DNA of 64,000 nucleotides from Spirochaeta thermophila DSM 6192 (lineage in GTDB: Bacteria; Spirochaetota; Spirochaetia; Winmispirales; Winmispiraceae): the NCBI RefSeq assembly GCF_000147075.1, contig NC_014484.1, positions 761,501 to 825,500 of the forward strand. Reading direction: 5' to 3'. The notes beneath the pieces are model-generated. The model was not told the DNA's origin. It did not search any database and saw nothing but the letters and a program-made list of their open reading frames with translations. The translations under genes and the position numbers were made by a program. Positions 28,836-57,508 of the stretch are shown piece by piece (the first letter of the stretch is position 1; each line of letters opens with the position of its first letter).

Positions 28836-30188
28836 TCACAGGCCGTATTCCCGTATCCTGTGGTAGAGGGTCTTGCGGGAAATGCCCAGGAGACGGGCCG
28901 TCTCGCTTATGTGGTAACCGGTCCGCCTCAGGGCATCCTCGATGAGGGCGCGCTCGAGCTCACGGGTGTGGCGGCGTACTGCCTCGGGAAGGGTCTCGCC
29001 CTCCTTCAACGAGGGGCGGGAACCGGGAGCCCTGGGGAGATCGATGCGGTCGATGAGGGGTCCCTCTGCGAGGAGCACGGCGTTGGTGATGACATTCTTG
29101 AGCTGCCGGATGTTGCCGGGCCAGGTGTAGGAGACGAGGGCCCGCTCCACCTCCGGGGTGAAGCCTTCCACCTTGCGGTGGTACCGGAGCCTCGCCTCCT
29201 TGAGGAAGAGGTAGGCGAGGGGGAGGATGTCCTCCTTGCGTTCCCTGAGCGGGGGAAGGTGTATGTGGATGACCTTGAGCCGGTAGAAGAGATCGCTCCT
29301 GAAGAGCCCTTCCTCGACCCGTCTCTCTATGGGGGCATTGGTGGCTGCGATGATCCGGCACTCGGCGGTGAGGGGTCTGCTCCCCCCGATCCGGTGGAAG
29401 GTCCGCTCTTCCAGGACGTGGAGGAGTTTGGCCTGCATCGCGAGGCTCATCTCCCCGATCTCGTCCAGGAAGAGGGTGCCTCGGCCCGCCTGCTCGAACT
29501 TGCCGCGGGTGCGTTCCACCGCCCCGGTGAAGGCCCCCCGTTCGTGTCCGAAGAGTTCACTCTCGAGGAGGGTCTCGGGGATGGCGGCGCAGTTGATCTC
29601 TATGAAAGGCCTGTCCTTCCGCACGCTCTCGTAGTGGATCCTCCTGGCCGTGACCTCCTTGCCGGTGCCGGTTTCTCCTGTGATGAGCACGGGGACGTCG
29701 AGGTCTTTCACCTTCTGGATGGTGACTTCCACCTGGTGCATGAGGGGGTGCCGGCTCCTGAAGGGCTCGCGTTCCTCCTTCGACCACCGGGCCTCGAGGA
29801 TGGCCTGCTGTTCTGCGCGGCGCCGCATGTCCTCCCACTCCCGTTCCAGGAGGGAGAGGAGGAGGGTGTGGTCCACCGGCTTGGTGAGGAAGTTGCGGGC
29901 GCCCATCCGCATGCACTCCACGGCGGTAGGGATGTCGCCGTACCCGGTGATCACCAGGACCGCCACGTGCGGGTGGTGTGCCACCATCTCCGCGAGGAGG
30001 CTCATCCCGTCGTCCTTCCCCAGCCTGAGGTCGAGGAGGGCGATGTCCACCTCGTGGCGCATGAGGATCTCGCGGGCCTCGCTGGCGGTGCGGGCGAGAA
30101 GGACGCGGTAGCCCTGCACTTCCAGGAACTTCTTGAGACCGAGAAGAAGGCCTTCTTCGTCGTCAACGATGAGTACTACCGGCTGCAC
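28836..30188 (-). CDS. NtrC-family sigma-54-dependent response regulator
   Basis: A 450-residue protein in three parts. The receiver domain (4-120) has the phosphorylation aspartate in LLDLRLG. The AAA+ domain (about 143-370) has GETGTGKE, the sigma-54-contacting GAFTGA, GTLFLDEIGE and the arginine finger region. A Fis-type helix-turn-helix (ETARLLGISRKTLYHRIREY) ends the protein. Its start overlaps the end of the sensor kinase gene, its cognate partner. A consensus sigma-54 promoter lies downstream before the sugar-binding gene, the likely target. Confidence 0.94.
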   Translation of the reverse strand: MQPVVLIVDDEEGLLLGLKKFLEVQGYRVLLARTASEAREILMRHEVDIALLDLRLGKDDGMSLLAEMVAHHPHVAVLVITGYGDIPTAVECMRMGARNFLTKPVDHTLLLSLLEREWEDMRRRAEQQAILEARWSKEEREPFRSRHPLMHQVEVTIQKVKDLDVPVLITGETGTGKEVTARRIHYESVRKDRPFIEINCAAIPETLLESELFGHERGAFTGAVERTRGKFEQAGRGTLFLDEIGEMSLAMQAKLLHVLEERTFHRIGGSRPLTAECRIIAATNAPIERRVEEGLFRSDLFYRLKVIHIHLPPLRERKEDILPLAYLFLKEARLRYHRKVEGFTPEVERALVSYTWPGNIRQLKNVITNAVLLAEGPLIDRIDLPRAPGSRPSLKEGETLPEAVRRHTRELERALIEDALRRTGYHISETARLLGISRKTLYHRIREYGL

Positions 30189-48955: not shown

Positions 48956-49047
48956 ACACCTATTACAGTAGGAAAAAACCGACTCCTGCTCAATGCCCCG
49001 GGGAGGGGCGGGGAAATCCCGTGGAGGATGGTATACTATATAAATGC

Positions 49048-49076
49048 TTGATTTTCTCGAGGTATGGTTTTACAGT
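49048..49076 (+). promoter_or_regulatory. Promoter of the cNMP-binding operon
   Basis: TTGATT (49048-49053), 17 bases, TACAGT (49071-49076). The AGGAGAGG ribosome site and ATG 49093 follow directly, which supports this start over an earlier in-frame ATG at 49021. Confidence 0.6.
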
Positions 49077-49092
49077 CGAAAAAGGAGAGGAT

Positions 49093-50070
49093 ATGCCCCG
49101 AACCGTCCACTACAAAGCGAGCTCCGTGATCTATTTCGAAGGGGATGTGGGAGACAAGGCCTACATCCTCCGCGAAGGAGAGATCGTCCTCACCTCCACC
49201 GATCTCGAGACGGGCCAGGAGGTGCACGAACGGATAGGCAAGGGGGAATTCTTCGGTGTCAAGTCGAGCGTGGGGCGCTATCCCCGGGAGGAGACTGCGA
49301 TGGTCCTCTCCGACGCCGAGGTGCTGGAGTTCTCCGCCTCTGAGTTCGAGGGCTTCCTCCTCAAGAACCCCCGGGTGATGATGAAGATGCTCAAGGTGCT
49401 CTCCCGTCAGCTCCGACGTATCCACAAGCGGGTTCAGACCTTGCTCGCCGTCTCGGAGGAGGTGAATCCCGAAGAGGGCCTCTTTTCTATCTGCAAGTAC
49501 TACATCGAGAAACAGCAGTTCTCACAGGCCGCCTACGCCCTCGGCCGGTACCTCGCCTACTATCCGGATGGCGTCCACGTGGAGGAGGTGAAGGCCGCCC
49601 TCACCCGCGTACAGGCTGCCCAGGCGAGAGGGGGTACGGGTGCGCTTTCCATCCCGTCGCCCGAGCCCAGGAAGCCCTCCCTCTCGTCCGCGGAGAAGGA
49701 CTTCTACGAGGCAGAGAGCCTGTTCGGCCAGGAACGGTACGAGGAGGCCCTTGCCTCCTTCACCCGGATTGCAGAGGGATCCGACCAGGAGGATGTCCGG
49801 CGCAGGGCCCTCTTCGAGTCGGGGAGGTGTCTCATGGCCATGGCGCGTTACGACGAGGTCATCCAGCACTACTCACGGTTCGCACGGGACTTCTCCGACG
49901 CACCGGAGACCTCGGAGGCCCTCTTCCTCATCGCCCGTGCCTACGAGGAGAAGGGCGATGGAGCACGGGCAGGGGCACTCTACCGTAAGGTGCTCTCCCT
50001 CCCGGGAGTGAGCAGCGAAGTGGTGAAGAAGGCGCGGAAGGCACTCAGGGGCCTGGAGGAACGGGTATGA
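49093..50070 (+). CDS. cNMP-binding domain protein with TPR-like tail
   Basis: A 325-residue protein. Residues 1-115 form a cyclic-nucleotide-binding barrel (ASSVIYFEGDVGDKAYILREGEI-type start split by a turn, then IGKGEFFGVKS). Instead of a DNA-binding domain there are helical repeats (QFSQAAYALGRYLAYYPD, RYEEALASFTRIAEG, YEEKGDGARAGALYRKVL) of TPR type, about 145-320. It is therefore a ligand-sensing adaptor rather than a transcription factor. The stop overlaps the next cNMP gene (ATGA). Confidence 0.82.
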   Translation: MPRTVHYKASSVIYFEGDVGDKAYILREGEIVLTSTDLETGQEVHERIGKGEFFGVKSSVGRYPREETAMVLSDAEVLEFSASEFEGFLLKNPRVMMKMLKVLSRQLRRIHKRVQTLLAVSEEVNPEEGLFSICKYYIEKQQFSQAAYALGRYLAYYPDGVHVEEVKAALTRVQAAQARGGTGALSIPSPEPRKPSLSSAEKDFYEAESLFGQERYEEALASFTRIAEGSDQEDVRRRALFESGRCLMAMARYDEVIQHYSRFARDFSDAPETSEALFLIARAYEEKGDGARAGALYRKVLSLPGVSSEVVKKARKALRGLEERV

Positions 50071-50714
50071 TGCTCACGGGGCCGTCATTCGACCGATTCG
50101 CCGTCTACTACAAGAGGGGTGACATCATCTTCTGTGAGTATGAACCGGGGGACACTTTCTACCTCATCCAGGAGGGGAGGGTACAGATCTCCAAGATCAT
50201 GGGAGGGCTCGAAAAGACCATCGACATCCTCAAGCCGGGAGAGATCTTCGGAGAGATGGCCATCCTGGAGGAGGCACCGCGCTCGGCCACGGCCGTGGCC
50301 CTGGACGACGTGAAACTACTCGAGTTCACCAAGGAGAATTTCTCCCTCCTCCTCGAGGGAAACCCCCAGATCGCCCTGAAGCTCCTCAAGCTCTTCATCA
50401 AGCGCATCTATGACCAGAAACGAAGGCTCATGATCCTCACCCTCGACGATGAGCAGGCCAGGATCGCGGACGTGTTCCTCATGCTCGCCGAGTCCCGTCT
50501 TCAGGAAGAAGAGGACGAGGGCAAGGGGCTCGTCTTCGAGACCACGGTGGACGACATCGCCCATTGGGCCGGGATGAATCCCACCCGCGCCCGCAACGTG
50601 CTCAACCAGTTCGCCTCACAGCACCGGGTGACGCTCCATCCCGACAAGATCGTGGTGCACAACATCAACGATTTCAGGCGCCTGGTGTCCTCCCGGAGAC
50701 CCATACGGAAATGA
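50067..50714 (+). CDS. Crp/Fnr-family transcription regulator
   Basis: A 215-residue protein. The cNMP-binding barrel (about 15-115) has GDTFYLIQEGRVQI and LKPGEIFGEMAILEEAPRSATAVA, with the glutamate and arginine-serine of the phosphate-binding cassette, so cAMP or a related ligand could bind. A winged helix lies at 140-205 (TTVDDIAHWAGMNPTRARNVLNQF). It follows a cNMP protein without DNA-binding domain and precedes UbiB, overlapping both by ATGA. Confidence 0.85.
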   Translation: MMLTGPSFDRFAVYYKRGDIIFCEYEPGDTFYLIQEGRVQISKIMGGLEKTIDILKPGEIFGEMAILEEAPRSATAVALDDVKLLEFTKENFSLLLEGNPQIALKLLKLFIKRIYDQKRRLMILTLDDEQARIADVFLMLAESRLQEEEDEGKGLVFETTVDDIAHWAGMNPTRARNVLNQFASQHRVTLHPDKIVVHNINDFRRLVSSRRPIRK

Positions 50715-52533: not shown

Positions 52534-53376
52534 ATGATACGAGGGTACTACATAGGCGCGAGCGGCATGGCGAGCCAGCTCAACCGGATGGACGCCATCG
52601 CCAACAACCTGGCCAACGTGGACCTCACCGGGTACAAACGGGACACCGCGATCTTCAAGGCCTTCCCCGAGCTGCTCATCCGAAGGATGAACGACAGGTA
52701 CTTCAAGATCCCGTGGGGATCCATCGACAACACCCCCGTGGTGGGGAAGCTCGGCACCGGGGTGGAGACGAACGAGGTCTACACCGTGTTCGAGCAGGGA
52801 CCGCTCAAGGAGACCAAGGACCCCTTCCACTTCGCCCTCGAGGGACAGGGGTTTTTCACCGTGCTCACCCCGCAGGGCGAGCGCTACACCAGGAACGGGT
52901 CCTTCATCCTGGGACCGGAGGGGCTGCTCGTCACCAAGGAAGGTTACCCCGTGGTGGGTGAGAACGGGCTCATCCGCATCAAGGCCAACAACTTCGTGGT
53001 CGATGAAGACGGGCGCATCTTCCAGAACGCCCGTTTCGCGGAGGATCCCGACAGGCTCGTAGCCCTCGAGGAAAACGAGTGGGACGAGACGGAATTGGTG
53101 GATCGTCTCAAGATAGTGAACGTCCGCAGGCCCCGCTATCTCCAGAAGCAGGGGGACTCGCTCTGGAGGACCACCCGGGAGTCCGGGGAGGCGGAGATCC
53201 TCCAGGAAGGAAGACCGAAGGTGCGCCAGGGCTTCCTGGAAGGGTCGAACGTGAACCCGGTGACGGAGATGGTGCAGATGATAGAGGTGAACCGGGCCTA
53301 CGAGGCCAACCAGAAGACCATCGAGACACAGGACACCCTGCTCGGCCGACTCATCAACGAGGTGCTGAAGATATGA
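52534..53376 (+). CDS. flgF: Flagellar basal-body rod protein, FlgF/FlhO type
   Basis: A 280-residue rod protein. N-terminal rod signature GASGMASQLNRMDAIANNLANV, middle FALEGQGFFTV with RYTRNGSF, and C-terminal VNPVTEMVQMIEVNRAYEANQKT. These heptad ends pack the rod. It is the more divergent of two paralogues here; in spirochaetes the pair is named variously FlgF/FlgG or FlhO/FlhP. First gene of flgF-flgG-flgJ, behind a sigma-28-like promoter. Confidence 0.88.
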   Translation: MIRGYYIGASGMASQLNRMDAIANNLANVDLTGYKRDTAIFKAFPELLIRRMNDRYFKIPWGSIDNTPVVGKLGTGVETNEVYTVFEQGPLKETKDPFHFALEGQGFFTVLTPQGERYTRNGSFILGPEGLLVTKEGYPVVGENGLIRIKANNFVVDEDGRIFQNARFAEDPDRLVALEENEWDETELVDRLKIVNVRRPRYLQKQGDSLWRTTRESGEAEILQEGRPKVRQGFLEGSNVNPVTEMVQMIEVNRAYEANQKTIETQDTLLGRLINEVLKI

Positions 53377-53401: not shown

Positions 53402-54196
53402 ATGATGCGATCGCTCTGGACCGCGGCATCCGGCATGGTGGGACAGCAGTACCACATAGACACGGTGGCGAATAACCTCTCGAACGTGAATACCACCGGA
53501 TTCAAGAAGAACCGGGTGGACTTTCAGGACCTCATCTACCAGACCGTCCGCATGGCGGGTACCCCTGCCACCGAGGTGACCGTGGTGCCAACCCCCACCC
53601 AGGTGGGACACGGCGTACGGGTGGCGGCGAGCAGCAAGATCTTCACCCAGGGGGCCCTCCAGCACACGGACAACGTGAGCGACCTCGCGATTCAGGGCGA
53701 GGGGTTCTTCAGGGTCCTCCTCTACGACGGCACCTACGCCTACACCCGTGACGGCTCCTTCAAGATCGACAGCAACGGTCAGCTGGTCACCTCGAACGGG
53801 TACCGCCTCATCCCCGAGATCGTTCTCCCCGAAGGTTTCATTGCCGACACCCTCGCGGTCTCGGAGGACGGAAGGGTGACCGTGAAGGTGCCCGGTCAGG
53901 ACGATCCCGTGGAGGTGGGGCAGATACAGCTCTACCGCTTCGTGAACCCCGCAGGACTCCTCGCCGTGGGCGACAACCTCTACAAGGTGACGAACGCCTC
54001 GGGTGATCCCATAGGCGGGAGACCCGGATTCGATGGTATGGGCAAGCTCCTTCACAAGTTCCTCGAGATGTCCAATGTCTCCGTAGTGAACGAGATGGTG
54101 GAGATGATCGTGGCTCAGCGGGCCTACGAGCTCAATTCGAAGGCGGTCCAGACCTCGGATTCCATGCTTGGCACCGCCGTGAACCTCAAGCGCTAG
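53402..54196 (+). CDS. flgG: Flagellar distal rod protein FlgG
   Basis: A 264-residue protein with the ends typical of FlgG: LWTAASGMVGQQYHIDTVANNL and, near the C-terminus, VNEMVEMIVAQRAYELNSKAV. The central LAIQGEGFFRVLL and YTRDGSFKIDSNG are conserved. Normal length for FlgG. GGAGG precedes ATG 53402. It builds the distal rod of the periplasmic flagellum. Confidence 0.93.
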   Translation: MMRSLWTAASGMVGQQYHIDTVANNLSNVNTTGFKKNRVDFQDLIYQTVRMAGTPATEVTVVPTPTQVGHGVRVAASSKIFTQGALQHTDNVSDLAIQGEGFFRVLLYDGTYAYTRDGSFKIDSNGQLVTSNGYRLIPEIVLPEGFIADTLAVSEDGRVTVKVPGQDDPVEVGQIQLYRFVNPAGLLAVGDNLYKVTNASGDPIGGRPGFDGMGKLLHKFLEMSNVSVVNEMVEMIVAQRAYELNSKAVQTSDSMLGTAVNLKR

Positions 54197-54206
54197 GAGG
54201 AGCACG

Positions 54207-54494
54207 GTGATCAACCCCCTCGACCTGTATAAGATAGTAGACACACCGGTGCCTCCCGGGCTCCCCCGGAAGGAGGATCCGAAGCTCAAGGAGGCAACCG
54301 AGGAGTTTGAAGCCCTTTTCGTGAAGATGATGGTCGATCAGATGCGGAAGGGGGTGCCGAGATCGGGGCTCCTCGAGAAGAACATGGCCGAGGAGGTCTT
54401 CGAAGACATGCTCTACGACGAGTATGCGCGGCTCATGGCTAAGACCACCAGGTTCGGTCTCGCGGAGATGCTCTACAAGGAACTCTCCGGATGA
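54207..54494 (+). CDS. flgJ: Flagellar rod-binding protein, FlgJ N-domain only
   Basis: A 95-residue protein matching the rod-binding domain of FlgJ (EATEEFEALFVKMMVDQMRK, SGLLEKNMAEEVFEDMLYDEYA). The muramidase domain found in enterobacterial FlgJ is absent, as in many other bacteria, so a separate wall hydrolase must open the layer. Start GTG 54207 with AGGAGG upstream. Last flagellar gene of this unit. Confidence 0.88.
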   Translation: MINPLDLYKIVDTPVPPGLPRKEDPKLKEATEEFEALFVKMMVDQMRKGVPRSGLLEKNMAEEVFEDMLYDEYARLMAKTTRFGLAEMLYKELSG

Positions 54495-54580
54495 TCGAGG
54501 TGTAGCGAAATGAGAAAAATGTGCCGCACCGATGTATGAAAAAGCAGACAGAATACGAGGTGAAAGCTGGAATGGCACGG

Positions 54581-54612
54581 GGAGGATCTCATGATCCTTC
54601 CCTTTTCTTTTT
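54581..54612 (+). terminator. Terminator after the flg genes
   Basis: A nine-pair stem GGGAGGATC/GATCCTTCC with a 4-base loop, then TTTTCTTTTTATT. It separates the flagellar unit from the sigma factor gene. Confidence 0.85.
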
Positions 54613-54642
54613 ATTGAAGTGAATTATATGGCCACATGATTG

Positions 54643-54657
54643 TGGCACGCTCCTTGC
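54643..54657 (+). promoter_or_regulatory. Sigma-54 promoter of the sigma factor gene
   Basis: TGGCAC (54643-54648), five bases, TTGC (54654-54657), an exact match to the consensus -24/-12 element. The start would be near 54669, leaving 12 bases that include the GGAG ribosome site before ATG 54681. Confidence 0.85.
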
Positions 54658-54680
54658 TGGATAATGGACAGGAGTGTGCC

Positions 54681-55526
54681 ATGAGCAGAAAGAGAGTCGT
54701 GAAGTACAGCGTCGGAAGGGAAGAGATAGCCTACCTCAGGGAGATCAAGCGCTATAAACTGCTCTCTCCCGAAGAGGAGAGGGAGCTCGGCAAGCGGATA
54801 CGCCGGGGTGATCCTGAAGCACGGGAACGGCTCATCACCGCAAACCTCAGGCTCGTGGTGAAGATCGCGCTCCAGTTCTCGGTACCCGATATCCCCCTCC
54901 TCGATCTCATACAGGAGGGTAACATCGGCCTCATCCGGGCGGCGGAGAAGTTCGACTATCGGAGGAACATCCGCTTCTCCACCTATGCGGCCTGGTGGAT
55001 ACGACAGGCCATCCACAGGGCGCTCATGAACAAGCGGCGTCCGATACGGCTTCCGAACCGTAAGGAGGACGTGCTCCGCAAGATAGAGAAGGCGAAACAG
55101 CTCCTCGAGCAGCGTCTCATGAGAGAACCCTCCACCGAGGAGATCGCCGAGCTTCTCGGCATGGAGACCGAGGAGGTCGAAGAGCTCATCAACCTGGGCC
55201 AGGAGGTGGTCTCCCTGGAAACCCAGATCAACGACGGGAGCATGGACCTCCATGATGTGTGTCCCGGTGGTGCCTCTCCCGAAGAAGAGGTGTGCAGGAA
55301 GGCCTGCAGGGAGGATACCCTCACCCTCATACAGCGGACCCTGGATTCCCGGGAGAGCGAAGTGGTCCTCCACCGCTACGCGCTCACCGGACCTCGCTAT
55401 ACCCTCAAGACGTTGAGCGAGCATCTGGGGATCTCTCCCGAGACCGTGCGGCAGATAGAGATCCGTGCCCTCCGGAAGTTGAGGGAGCGGGCCGAGGTGG
55501 TGGGTGATTACGTGCTCTCTCGGTGA
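54681..55526 (+). CDS. Group 2 sigma-70 family factor (RpoS/RpoD-like)
   Basis: A 281-residue factor. Region 2 is complete (ANLRLVVKIA, LLDLIQEGNIGLIRAAEKFDY, STYAAWWIRQAIHRAL), region 3 follows (RLMREPSTEEIAELLG), and region 4 has the helix-turn-helix (TLKTLSEHLGISPETVRQIEIRALRKL). Region 1.1 of housekeeping sigma factors is missing, so it is an alternative factor. ATG 54681 is chosen for its GGAG; an earlier in-frame ATG at 54636 would lie before the sigma-54 start site. Its promoter makes it a target of sigma-54, a layout like the RpoN-RpoS cascade of Borrelia. Position after the flagellar genes may be coincidental. Confidence 0.88.
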   Translation: MSRKRVVKYSVGREEIAYLREIKRYKLLSPEEERELGKRIRRGDPEARERLITANLRLVVKIALQFSVPDIPLLDLIQEGNIGLIRAAEKFDYRRNIRFSTYAAWWIRQAIHRALMNKRRPIRLPNRKEDVLRKIEKAKQLLEQRLMREPSTEEIAELLGMETEEVEELINLGQEVVSLETQINDGSMDLHDVCPGGASPEEEVCRKACREDTLTLIQRTLDSRESEVVLHRYALTGPRYTLKTLSEHLGISPETVRQIEIRALRKLRERAEVVGDYVLSR

Positions 55527-55562: not shown

Positions 55563-56495
55563 GTGAGTACAGAGAAGCCGTCTCCCAGGAAGAGAAGCGG
55601 GGGGGCCCGATCCCGCGGCCGAAGGAAGCCCGCGAGAAAGCGTGCAAAGGCGAAGAGGGGCGCGAAGGGCTTCGGCCTCGTGTGGTTTCTCCTCGGCCTG
55701 CTCGCGGGCGCGGTCGCCGTATGGGTGGTGGCGCCTCCCCGTCCGGTGCCGTCCCCTCTCCCCACACCCCTCCCTTCCCCCTCACCCCTTCCCAGCGCGG
55801 TCCCCACGCCCTCCCCCACCCCTCGGGTGGAGGGGGTCCTCTACCTCATCATCGACGATGCGGGGTATTCCCTCGAACAGGTGGAGCCCTTCCTCTCCCT
55901 TCCCTTCCCGCTCGCGGTCTCCGTGCTCCCGGGTCTCCCCCTCTCGGGGGAAGTGGCCCGTAGGGTGCGGGAGGCCGGCAAGACCCTCTTCCTGCATCTC
56001 CCCATGGAGCCCGAGGGGAATGAAGACCCCGGTCCGGGGGCCCTCTATGTCTCCATGTCCCGGGCGGAGATCGAGCATGTGATCGCGGAGGACCTCGCCT
56101 CGGTCCCCGGGGTGCAAGGTGTGAACAACCACATGGGCTCGCGTTTCACCAAGGACCCTTTACGAATGGAGTGGATTCTTAGTATCCTTGCGGCCGGCGG
56201 TCTCCTGTTCGTCGACAGCAGGACCACGCCCGAGAGCGTGGTGAGGGAGACGGCCTTCAGGCTCGGGGTGCCTGTGATGGAGCGGGACGTGTTCCTGGAC
56301 AACGAGCAGACCGCAGTCTACGTGGAACAGGCCTTCATGCACGCCGTGCAGATCGCCAGGAGGCGTGGGAGGGCGGTGGCCATAGGCCACGTGTGGACGC
56401 GGGTCCTTCCCGGCGTGCTCGGCCGCATGGCGGATCGCGCCAGGGATGAGGGCGTGATCCTGGGGGACATACTGGAGGTACTGGAGCGGCGATGA
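55563..56495 (+). CDS. Divergent polysaccharide deacetylase family protein
   Basis: A 310-residue protein of the DUF610/YibQ type. A strongly basic cytoplasmic tail (1-35) precedes one membrane span (FGLVWFLLGLLAGAVAVWVV), then a proline/serine linker (about 58-88) and the catalytic-type domain (about 90-305: LIIDDAGYSLEQ, LPFPLAVSVLPGLP, LHLPMEP, NNHMGSRFT, FVDSRTTP, GHV). These keep the metal-binding D and H pattern. It should act on wall or envelope sugar. Start GTG 55563 is the only in-frame start before the conserved region. The stop overlaps tsaD (ATGA). Confidence 0.82.
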   Translation: MSTEKPSPRKRSGGARSRGRRKPARKRAKAKRGAKGFGLVWFLLGLLAGAVAVWVVAPPRPVPSPLPTPLPSPSPLPSAVPTPSPTPRVEGVLYLIIDDAGYSLEQVEPFLSLPFPLAVSVLPGLPLSGEVARRVREAGKTLFLHLPMEPEGNEDPGPGALYVSMSRAEIEHVIAEDLASVPGVQGVNNHMGSRFTKDPLRMEWILSILAAGGLLFVDSRTTPESVVRETAFRLGVPVMERDVFLDNEQTAVYVEQAFMHAVQIARRRGRAVAIGHVWTRVLPGVLGRMADRARDEGVILGDILEVLERR

Positions 56496-57508
56496 GGATA
56501 GTGGGTATAGAGACCTCGTGCGACGAGTGCGGGGTGGCGGTGGTCGAAGACGGACGACGCATCCTGAGCAACGTGGTGGCCACCCAGATAGAGTTCCACA
56601 AGCCCTACAGCGGGGTGGTGCCGGAGATCGCCTCCCGGAAGCACGTCGAATGGATAGAGGATGTCTACCTCAAGGCGCTCGATGAGGCAGGTGTGGCCCA
56701 GGAATCCCTCGATGCGGTGGCCGTGGTGAACCGGCCGGGGCTCGTGGGAGCCCTCGTGGTGGGTGTGTCCTTCGCCAAGGCCCTCGCCTATGGGCTCGGG
56801 AAGCCTCTCGTCGCAGTGGACCACATCAAGGCCCACCTCTATGCCCCCCTGATGGAGTTCGATATCCCGTATCCGTTCCTGGGACTCCTCCTCTCGGGTG
56901 GACACACGGTGATCGCAGAGGTGCAGGGCTACGACGAGTTCAGGGTGCTCGGTACCACCATAGACGATGCGTGCGGCGAGGCCTTCGACAAGGTGGCCAA
57001 GCACTACGGATGGGGATATCCCGGCGGTGTGGTGATAGACCGCCTCGCCCGGAAGGGGAACCCGGAGGCGTGCGCCTTCCCCGACCCCTCTCTCCACAAG
57101 GGGAGACACCGGTACGATGTCTCCTACTCGGGACTCAAGACCGCGGCCATCCATCAGCTCGACCAGTTCTGGAACCCCGAGTACCCCAGGACCGACGAGA
57201 ACCTCGCCGCGGCCTTCCAGAAGGCGGCCATCGACATGATCCTGAGACGGCTCGAGCTCGCGGTGGAGGATACGGGTATCCGTCGGATCGTGGTGGGCGG
57301 TGGGGTGGCCGCCAACTCGTATCTCAGGAACGCCCTCGGTGCCAGGACCGACTGGGACGTCTTTTTCCCCTCTCTCCCGCTCTGCGGCGACAACGGTGCC
57401 ATGGTGGCGGGTATCGCCTATCACTACGCGCGGGAGGGGAAGTTCGCCGCCCTCGATCTCGACGTCCATGCGCGGGTCGAGGCCTTCAAGCCCTATGCCG
57501 GCACATGA
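56492..57508 (+). CDS. tsaD: tRNA N6-threonylcarbamoyladenosine synthase subunit TsaD
   Basis: A 338-residue member of the Kae1/TsaD family. N-terminal GIETSCDECGVAVV, the metal-binding HIKAH near 111, LLSGGHT near 133, TIDDACGEAFDKVAK near 155, GGGVAANSYLR near 268 and GDNGAM near 295. It transfers the threonylcarbamoyl group to A37 of tRNAs that read ANN codons. It is coupled to the deacetylase gene by an ATGA and followed by apt. Confidence 0.95.
   Translation: MRIVGIETSCDECGVAVVEDGRRILSNVVATQIEFHKPYSGVVPEIASRKHVEWIEDVYLKALDEAGVAQESLDAVAVVNRPGLVGALVVGVSFAKALAYGLGKPLVAVDHIKAHLYAPLMEFDIPYPFLGLLLSGGHTVIAEVQGYDEFRVLGTTIDDACGEAFDKVAKHYGWGYPGGVVIDRLARKGNPEACAFPDPSLHKGRHRYDVSYSGLKTAAIHQLDQFWNPEYPRTDENLAAAFQKAAIDMILRRLELAVEDTGIRRIVVGGGVAANSYLRNALGARTDWDVFFPSLPLCGDNGAMVAGIAYHYAREGKFAALDLDVHARVEAFKPYAGT

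Follow-up and report, generated by a model that had tools for sequence, protein, structure and literature searches.

In the Lyme spirochaete, virulence is switched mainly by the RpoN-RpoS cascade. A published account holds that Borrelia appropriated this cascade, and it already notes that Borrelia RpoS goes back to a duplication separate from that of the gamma-proteobacteria (PMC6719511). In this system, activation of rpoS by Rrp2 does not require the 238 bp before the gene, nor does Rrp2 bind them (PMC1976401), and BosR binds the rpoS 5' UTR (PMC11109971). Here, we compare these arrangements with a locus of the free-living spirochaete Spirochaeta thermophila DSM 6192, which lies in a 64-kb stretch of its chromosome that was analysed as a whole (hereafter the window; all positions refer to it unless a genome handle is given).

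Positions 54681-55526 of the window (+ strand) encode a 281-amino acid sigma factor, sigma A, one of seven sigma-70-family members in the genome as counted by region 2. Regions 1.2, 2, 3 and 4 are all found in the open reading frame, region 1.1 is absent, and the protein qualifies as a group 2 member of the sigma-70 family. Directly upstream, at 54643-54657 (+ strand), lies TGGCACGCTCCTTGC, the sole match to a -24/-12 element in the entire window, where 0.04 matches are expected and four of 100 shuffled sequences had one. The -12 C at 54657 is followed by AGGAG at 54670-54674 and by the ATG at 54681, and we infer a transcription start at 54669, 12 nt past the -12 C. Another ATG in the same frame, at 54636, is located 5' of the promoter, so a sigma-54 transcript could not use it. 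An earlier note on this DNA had claimed a TGGCAC-N5-TTGC element whose -12 part ends 24 bases before the start codon of a gene for a group 2 sigma factor, and all parts of that description hold. What is expected of a sigma-54 promoter is in place, namely TGG-N9-TGC with consensus flanks 5' of the gene, one intact rpoN in the genome, and a candidate, still putative, activator site about 100-150 bp upstream. As far as sequence comparison can tell, the promoter is confirmed as real; its activity is inferred.

The sigma gene is embedded among conserved neighbours on the same (+) strand. An flgF-type (52534-53376) and an flgG-type (53402-54196) flagellar rod gene and a gene for an flgJ-like rod-binding protein (54207-54494; PF10135) precede it, and genes for a divergent polysaccharide deacetylase (55563-56495; PF04748) and for TsaD (56492-57508; PF00814) follow. 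Further upstream of the flagellar unit, two cyclic-nucleotide-binding (Crp-like) genes occupy 49021-50714, and homologues of these are found near the same locus in several families.

We searched sixty Spirochaetia genomes with the sigma protein, and the best thirty loci, from 19 family-level groups, formed a clear top group. In 29 of these best thirty orthologues, a TGG[CT]A[CT]-like -24 element and a TGC -12 element stand just 5' of the start; the single exception (L117) has the weaker element TGGCCCTATTTGTGC. Five bases (T1, G3, T13, G14 and C15) are invariant in 35 aligned promoters, and the distance from the TGG to the ATG is 36-44 nt at most loci. At loci with long flanks, the element precedes the sigma gene in every case (17/17) and none of the neighbouring flgF, flgG, flgJ-like, deacetylase or tsaD genes that served as controls (0/79). 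A chance match as the origin of the motif is ruled out by this conservation together with the control genes. Across some two dozen family-level groups the promoter is kept, and more examples occur outside the class.

Upstream of the promoter, an 18-bp dyad, TGTATGAAAAAGCAGACA (UAS-A, 54533-54550, + strand), is centred 101 nt before the -24 TGG and constitutes a putative enhancer site. A TGTATA-N6-TATACA dyad with at least 9 of 12 matches lies 92-112 nt before the TGG at 28 of 31 loci, whereas eight control intervals of the same width yield it at 0-6 of the 31. A search of 393 Spirochaetota genomes for dyad, spacer and promoter as one combined pattern returned 45 matches, spread over 39 of the genomes; the reversed control returned 2. 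Thirty loci bearing dyad and promoter were fetched. Of these, 13 precede a sigma gene, in genomes both of the class and beyond it, and eight precede another gene family. None of the ten Borreliaceae loci that we examined has a TGTATA dyad near the promoter, in agreement with the published enhancer-independent activation (PMC1976401). A second, distal UAS-like dyad, TGTATAAGATAGTAGACA, lies within the flgJ-like gene (54226-54243, + strand); it is kept in the genus, the genome has few such sites, and it may be an auxiliary site, with coding constraint not excluded. Two genomes (G025 and G045) carry a diverged, treponeme-like sigma, and G025 has a perfect dyad at -148 together with a TAGCAC-N5-TTGC promoter.

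The genome contains ten strong matches to sigma-54 activators. That no activator gene adjoins the sigma gene had been noted before, correctly. The nearest in the window, at about 28836-30176 (- strand), is an NtrC-type gene some 24 kb from the sigma gene that is neither the Rrp2 nor the NtrX-like orthologue. The gene for the NtrX-like activator (G000:C1:2416425-2417792) lies in the rpoN cluster, downstream of rpoN, and its start overlaps the end of a 562-amino acid kinase-like open reading frame, which by its position we take to be an NtrY-like kinase. With Borreliaceae, G025 and G045 set aside, the NtrX-like activator occurs in all 33 sigma carriers and in one of 22 non-carriers, the latter a fragmented assembly (G054); over all 60 genomes, the co-occurrence gives a Fisher p of 1.6e-10. 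It is also present in five genomes outside the class that have both sigma and dyad. It is absent from Borreliaceae, and at the cutoff used it was not found in G025 and G045, although both carry the sigma. Since carriers as well as non-carriers are grouped in few large clades, the pattern reflects few independent losses, and the Fisher value serves only as a guide.

By these measures, the distribution of the NtrX-like protein follows that of the dyad-bearing sigma far more closely than the distribution of Rrp2 does. An Rrp2 orthologue with 56% identity exists in S. thermophila (513 bits, compared to 364 for the next protein), and orthologues at this identity or above occur in 62 of 65 genomes, with or without the dyad-bearing sigma and without association with sigma carriage (Fisher p 0.13). 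Its presence in genomes that lack the dyad-bearing sigma weakens Rrp2 as the sole candidate. The most likely activator is the NtrX-like protein of the rpoN cluster rather than the Rrp2 orthologue, an identity that is inferred in the absence of binding data.

Rrp2 may have a different partner. A second group 2 sigma gene (G000:C1:547097-547906, + strand), which occurs with or without the first, has its own sigma-54 promoter 38 nt before the ATG in S. thermophila. Such a promoter precedes 11 of the 22 other sigma genes tested first, housekeeping sigmas included, and 17 of 18 further loci chosen for the second sigma family. The dyad at the second sigma is close to GTGTCA-N3-TGACAC, unlike the TGTATA dyad of the first, and in 14 genomes Rrp2 is encoded 6-12 kb from this gene. 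In the three Borreliaceae searched, there were only two sigma-70 matches, rpoS and an rpoD-like gene, and no second group 2 sigma. These genomic patterns are most simply read as assigning Rrp2 to the second sigma; Borrelia, after its losses, would use Rrp2 on rpoS without an enhancer. Both points are inferred. Extended to the ancestor, this reading posits two parallel cascades, one in which the NtrX-like protein would act through TGTATA-N6-TATACA on the RpoS-type sigma and a membrane-protein gene (see below), and one in which Rrp2 would act through GTGTCA-N3-TGACAC on the second sigma; in Borrelia, the second sigma would have disappeared along with the NtrX-like protein and the dyad, and the orphaned Rrp2 would have been re-used on rpoS without an enhancer. 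We regard this scheme as evenly poised between right and wrong. If true, the activator swap would account for the odd enhancer independence of Borrelia.

Rrp2 could instead be the ancestral activator that binds TGTATA-N6-TATACA, with Borrelia having lost the dyad only. Rrp2 is, after all, the proven activator in Borrelia (PMC1976401), and the recognition helix of its orthologues, including the one in S. thermophila, is invariant everywhere. Against it stand the retention of Rrp2 in nearly all genomes without a dyad-bearing sigma, its proximity to another group 2 sigma with a different dyad, and the closer tracking by the NtrX-like protein. We consider it possible but rather unlikely.

Less probable still, the dyad could be the operator of some other regulator, for example a repressor, next to a sigma-54 promoter that is real. 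Reading the dyad as an activator site rests on position and symmetry alone, and binding data are lacking. Yet sigma-54 enhancers typically sit at such a fixed distance of about 100 nt (PMC3037356), and the spacing is the same at an unrelated gene that has a sigma-54 promoter. This gene (G000:C1:28355-28924, - strand) encodes a membrane protein of about 205 amino acids; in S. thermophila the dyad lies about 98 nt before TGGCACGATTATTGC, and dyad and promoter precede the gene in many families. A distant Borrelia homologue (27%) has neither. The protein gave no significant Pfam or NCBIfam match, and a structure search returned only a weak resemblance to CDP-DAG synthetase (E 0.26, prob 0.84). Its conserved motifs recall, to our eyes, lipid kinases such as the polyprenol/dolichol kinases.

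How does sigma A relate to Borrelia RpoS? Most families share the gene order flgF-flgG-(other flagellar genes)-flgJ-like-sigma-deacetylase-tsaD, as do three Borreliaceae genomes (L133-L135) whose chromosomes measure 0.91-0.93 Mb. At a Lyme-group locus (L299), the sequence before the gene, ATTTTTAAATTAAATTGGCACAGTTTTTGCATG, is identical to the B31 rpoS primers of PMC1976401, and this exact match identifies the locus as rpoS. In a 35-row tree, a 100/100 branch places Borrelia RpoS on one side with the window protein and its orthologues; on the other side are E. coli RpoS and RpoD, the S. thermophila paralogues and proteins of other phyla. Sigma A hence groups with Borrelia RpoS and not with E. 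coli RpoS. Borrelia RpoS sits on a long branch, and an AU test did not reject its grouping with E. coli RpoS (p 0.084), so the tree alone is insufficient and the orthology leans on synteny. Judged chiefly by this conserved gene order, the sigma gene is the positional orthologue of Borrelia rpoS (BB0771). The long branch and the indecisive AU test leave formal room for rpoS having been wired to sigma-54 independently in Borrelia and in free-living spirochaetes, but nearly all other lineages with the gene have it at the same locus, in the same gene order and behind the same promoter, and we hold such independent wiring to be very improbable. In two Borreliaceae genomes, rpoN itself appears broken (G020:C1:472400-472828 and G058:C1:475649-476073), and the rpoS -24/-12 element is retained.

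Two predicted RNA structures flank the promoter on the + strand. A terminator-like hairpin with a T-rich run (54579-54612; -18.6 kcal/mol, z -3.6) follows the flgF-flgG-flgJ-like unit, and a second hairpin (54640-54684; -25 kcal/mol, z -3.8) pairs a 5' arm at 54640-54654, made up of the promoter, with a 3' arm at 54670-54684, which contains the Shine-Dalgarno sequence and the ATG. RNA begun at 54669 would lack the 5' arm, so that only read-through RNA would be silenced. Promoter and ribosome-site arms from one locus match each other more closely than arms taken from different loci (permutation p 0.001). Compared with shuffled sequences in which promoter, Shine-Dalgarno and ATG are left intact, the hairpin reaches p<0.05 in 15 of 31 loci; it is significant in one of ten further sigma loci and in none of seven at the membrane-protein gene. 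These statistics control only in part for base composition and relatedness. Given this variability between lineages, we rejected the hairpin as the main feature, and silencing of read-through RNA is plausible as a lineage-variable extra layer. That the motif arose by chance and the hairpin, strong as it is, matters by hiding the ribosome-binding site is scarcely credible, as the hairpin is significant at about half of the loci and the promoter present at nearly all.

We propose the following sequence of events. RpoN holoenzyme would bind the -24/-12 element at 54643-54657, and an NtrC/NtrX-type activator seated on the dyad at 54533-54550 would loop over about 100 bp and open the promoter. RNA starting at about 54669 would carry a 12-nt leader and be translated into the group 2 sigma, which would then turn on its own regulon. 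Borrelia would have lost both the NtrX-like activator and the dyad, and would now run Rrp2 without an enhancer. Promoter, conservation, synteny, the fixed spacing of the dyad and the co-occurrence are established at the level of sequence; promoter activity, looping, activator identity and regulon are inferred. With this division in mind, we think it highly probable that the locus represents an ancestral spirochaete sigma cascade with inherited sigma-54 control, dyad and NtrX-like activator, later reduced in Borrelia.

In the open-access literature, we came upon no description of the conserved promoter or of the dyad for organisms other than Borrelia, and the passages located in a 2025 sigma-54 regulon survey that covers Spirochaetia (PMC12316311) do not mention this wiring. 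New here are the dyad and its loss in Borreliaceae, the NtrX-like co-occurrence, the second sigma-54-driven sigma and the membrane-protein target. On the genomic evidence, the cascade is an inherited spirochaete device that free-living species possess and of which Borrelia has lost the putative enhancer site and the probable activator. Both puzzles, the origin of the cascade and the enhancer-free action of Rrp2, thereby become directly testable in harmless organisms.

Compared to the known systems, sigma A resembles E. coli RpoS, the general stress sigma, in being a group 2 factor with regions 1.2-4. It differs in lying on the opposite side of the 100/100 branch, and at 225 bits it falls short of the curated RpoS cutoff of 378.7; we rejected its classification as a proteobacterial RpoS. 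The candidate activator recalls the NtrYX two-component system in being NtrX-like, in the overlap of its start with the NtrY-like kinase gene and in its place in the rpoN cluster, but it scores 485 bits to NtrX, below the curated cutoff of 600. The closest likeness is to the Rrp2-RpoN-RpoS cascade of Borrelia burgdorferi, with which S. thermophila shares the gene position, an orthologous sigma, the -24/-12 element and the presence of an Rrp2 orthologue. The earlier note had claimed the same wiring as Borrelia rpoS: the orthologous sigma and the same promoter bear this out, and identity of the wiring does not stand, as the free-living relatives have an upstream dyad and probably another activator. 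Its further suggestion that the cascade is older than host adaptation is supported by the synteny, the 100/100 branch and the breadth of promoter conservation inside and outside the class. In S. thermophila the dyad stands at a fixed distance and the leader is predicted to be 12 nt long; Borrelia is without the dyad, the NtrX-like activator and the second group 2 sigma, and the rpoS leader in the Lyme group is roughly 40 nt longer. With dyad and activator lost, and with a separate, Rrp2-linked second sigma in its relatives, the Borrelia cascade is probably the stripped-down remnant of an older one.
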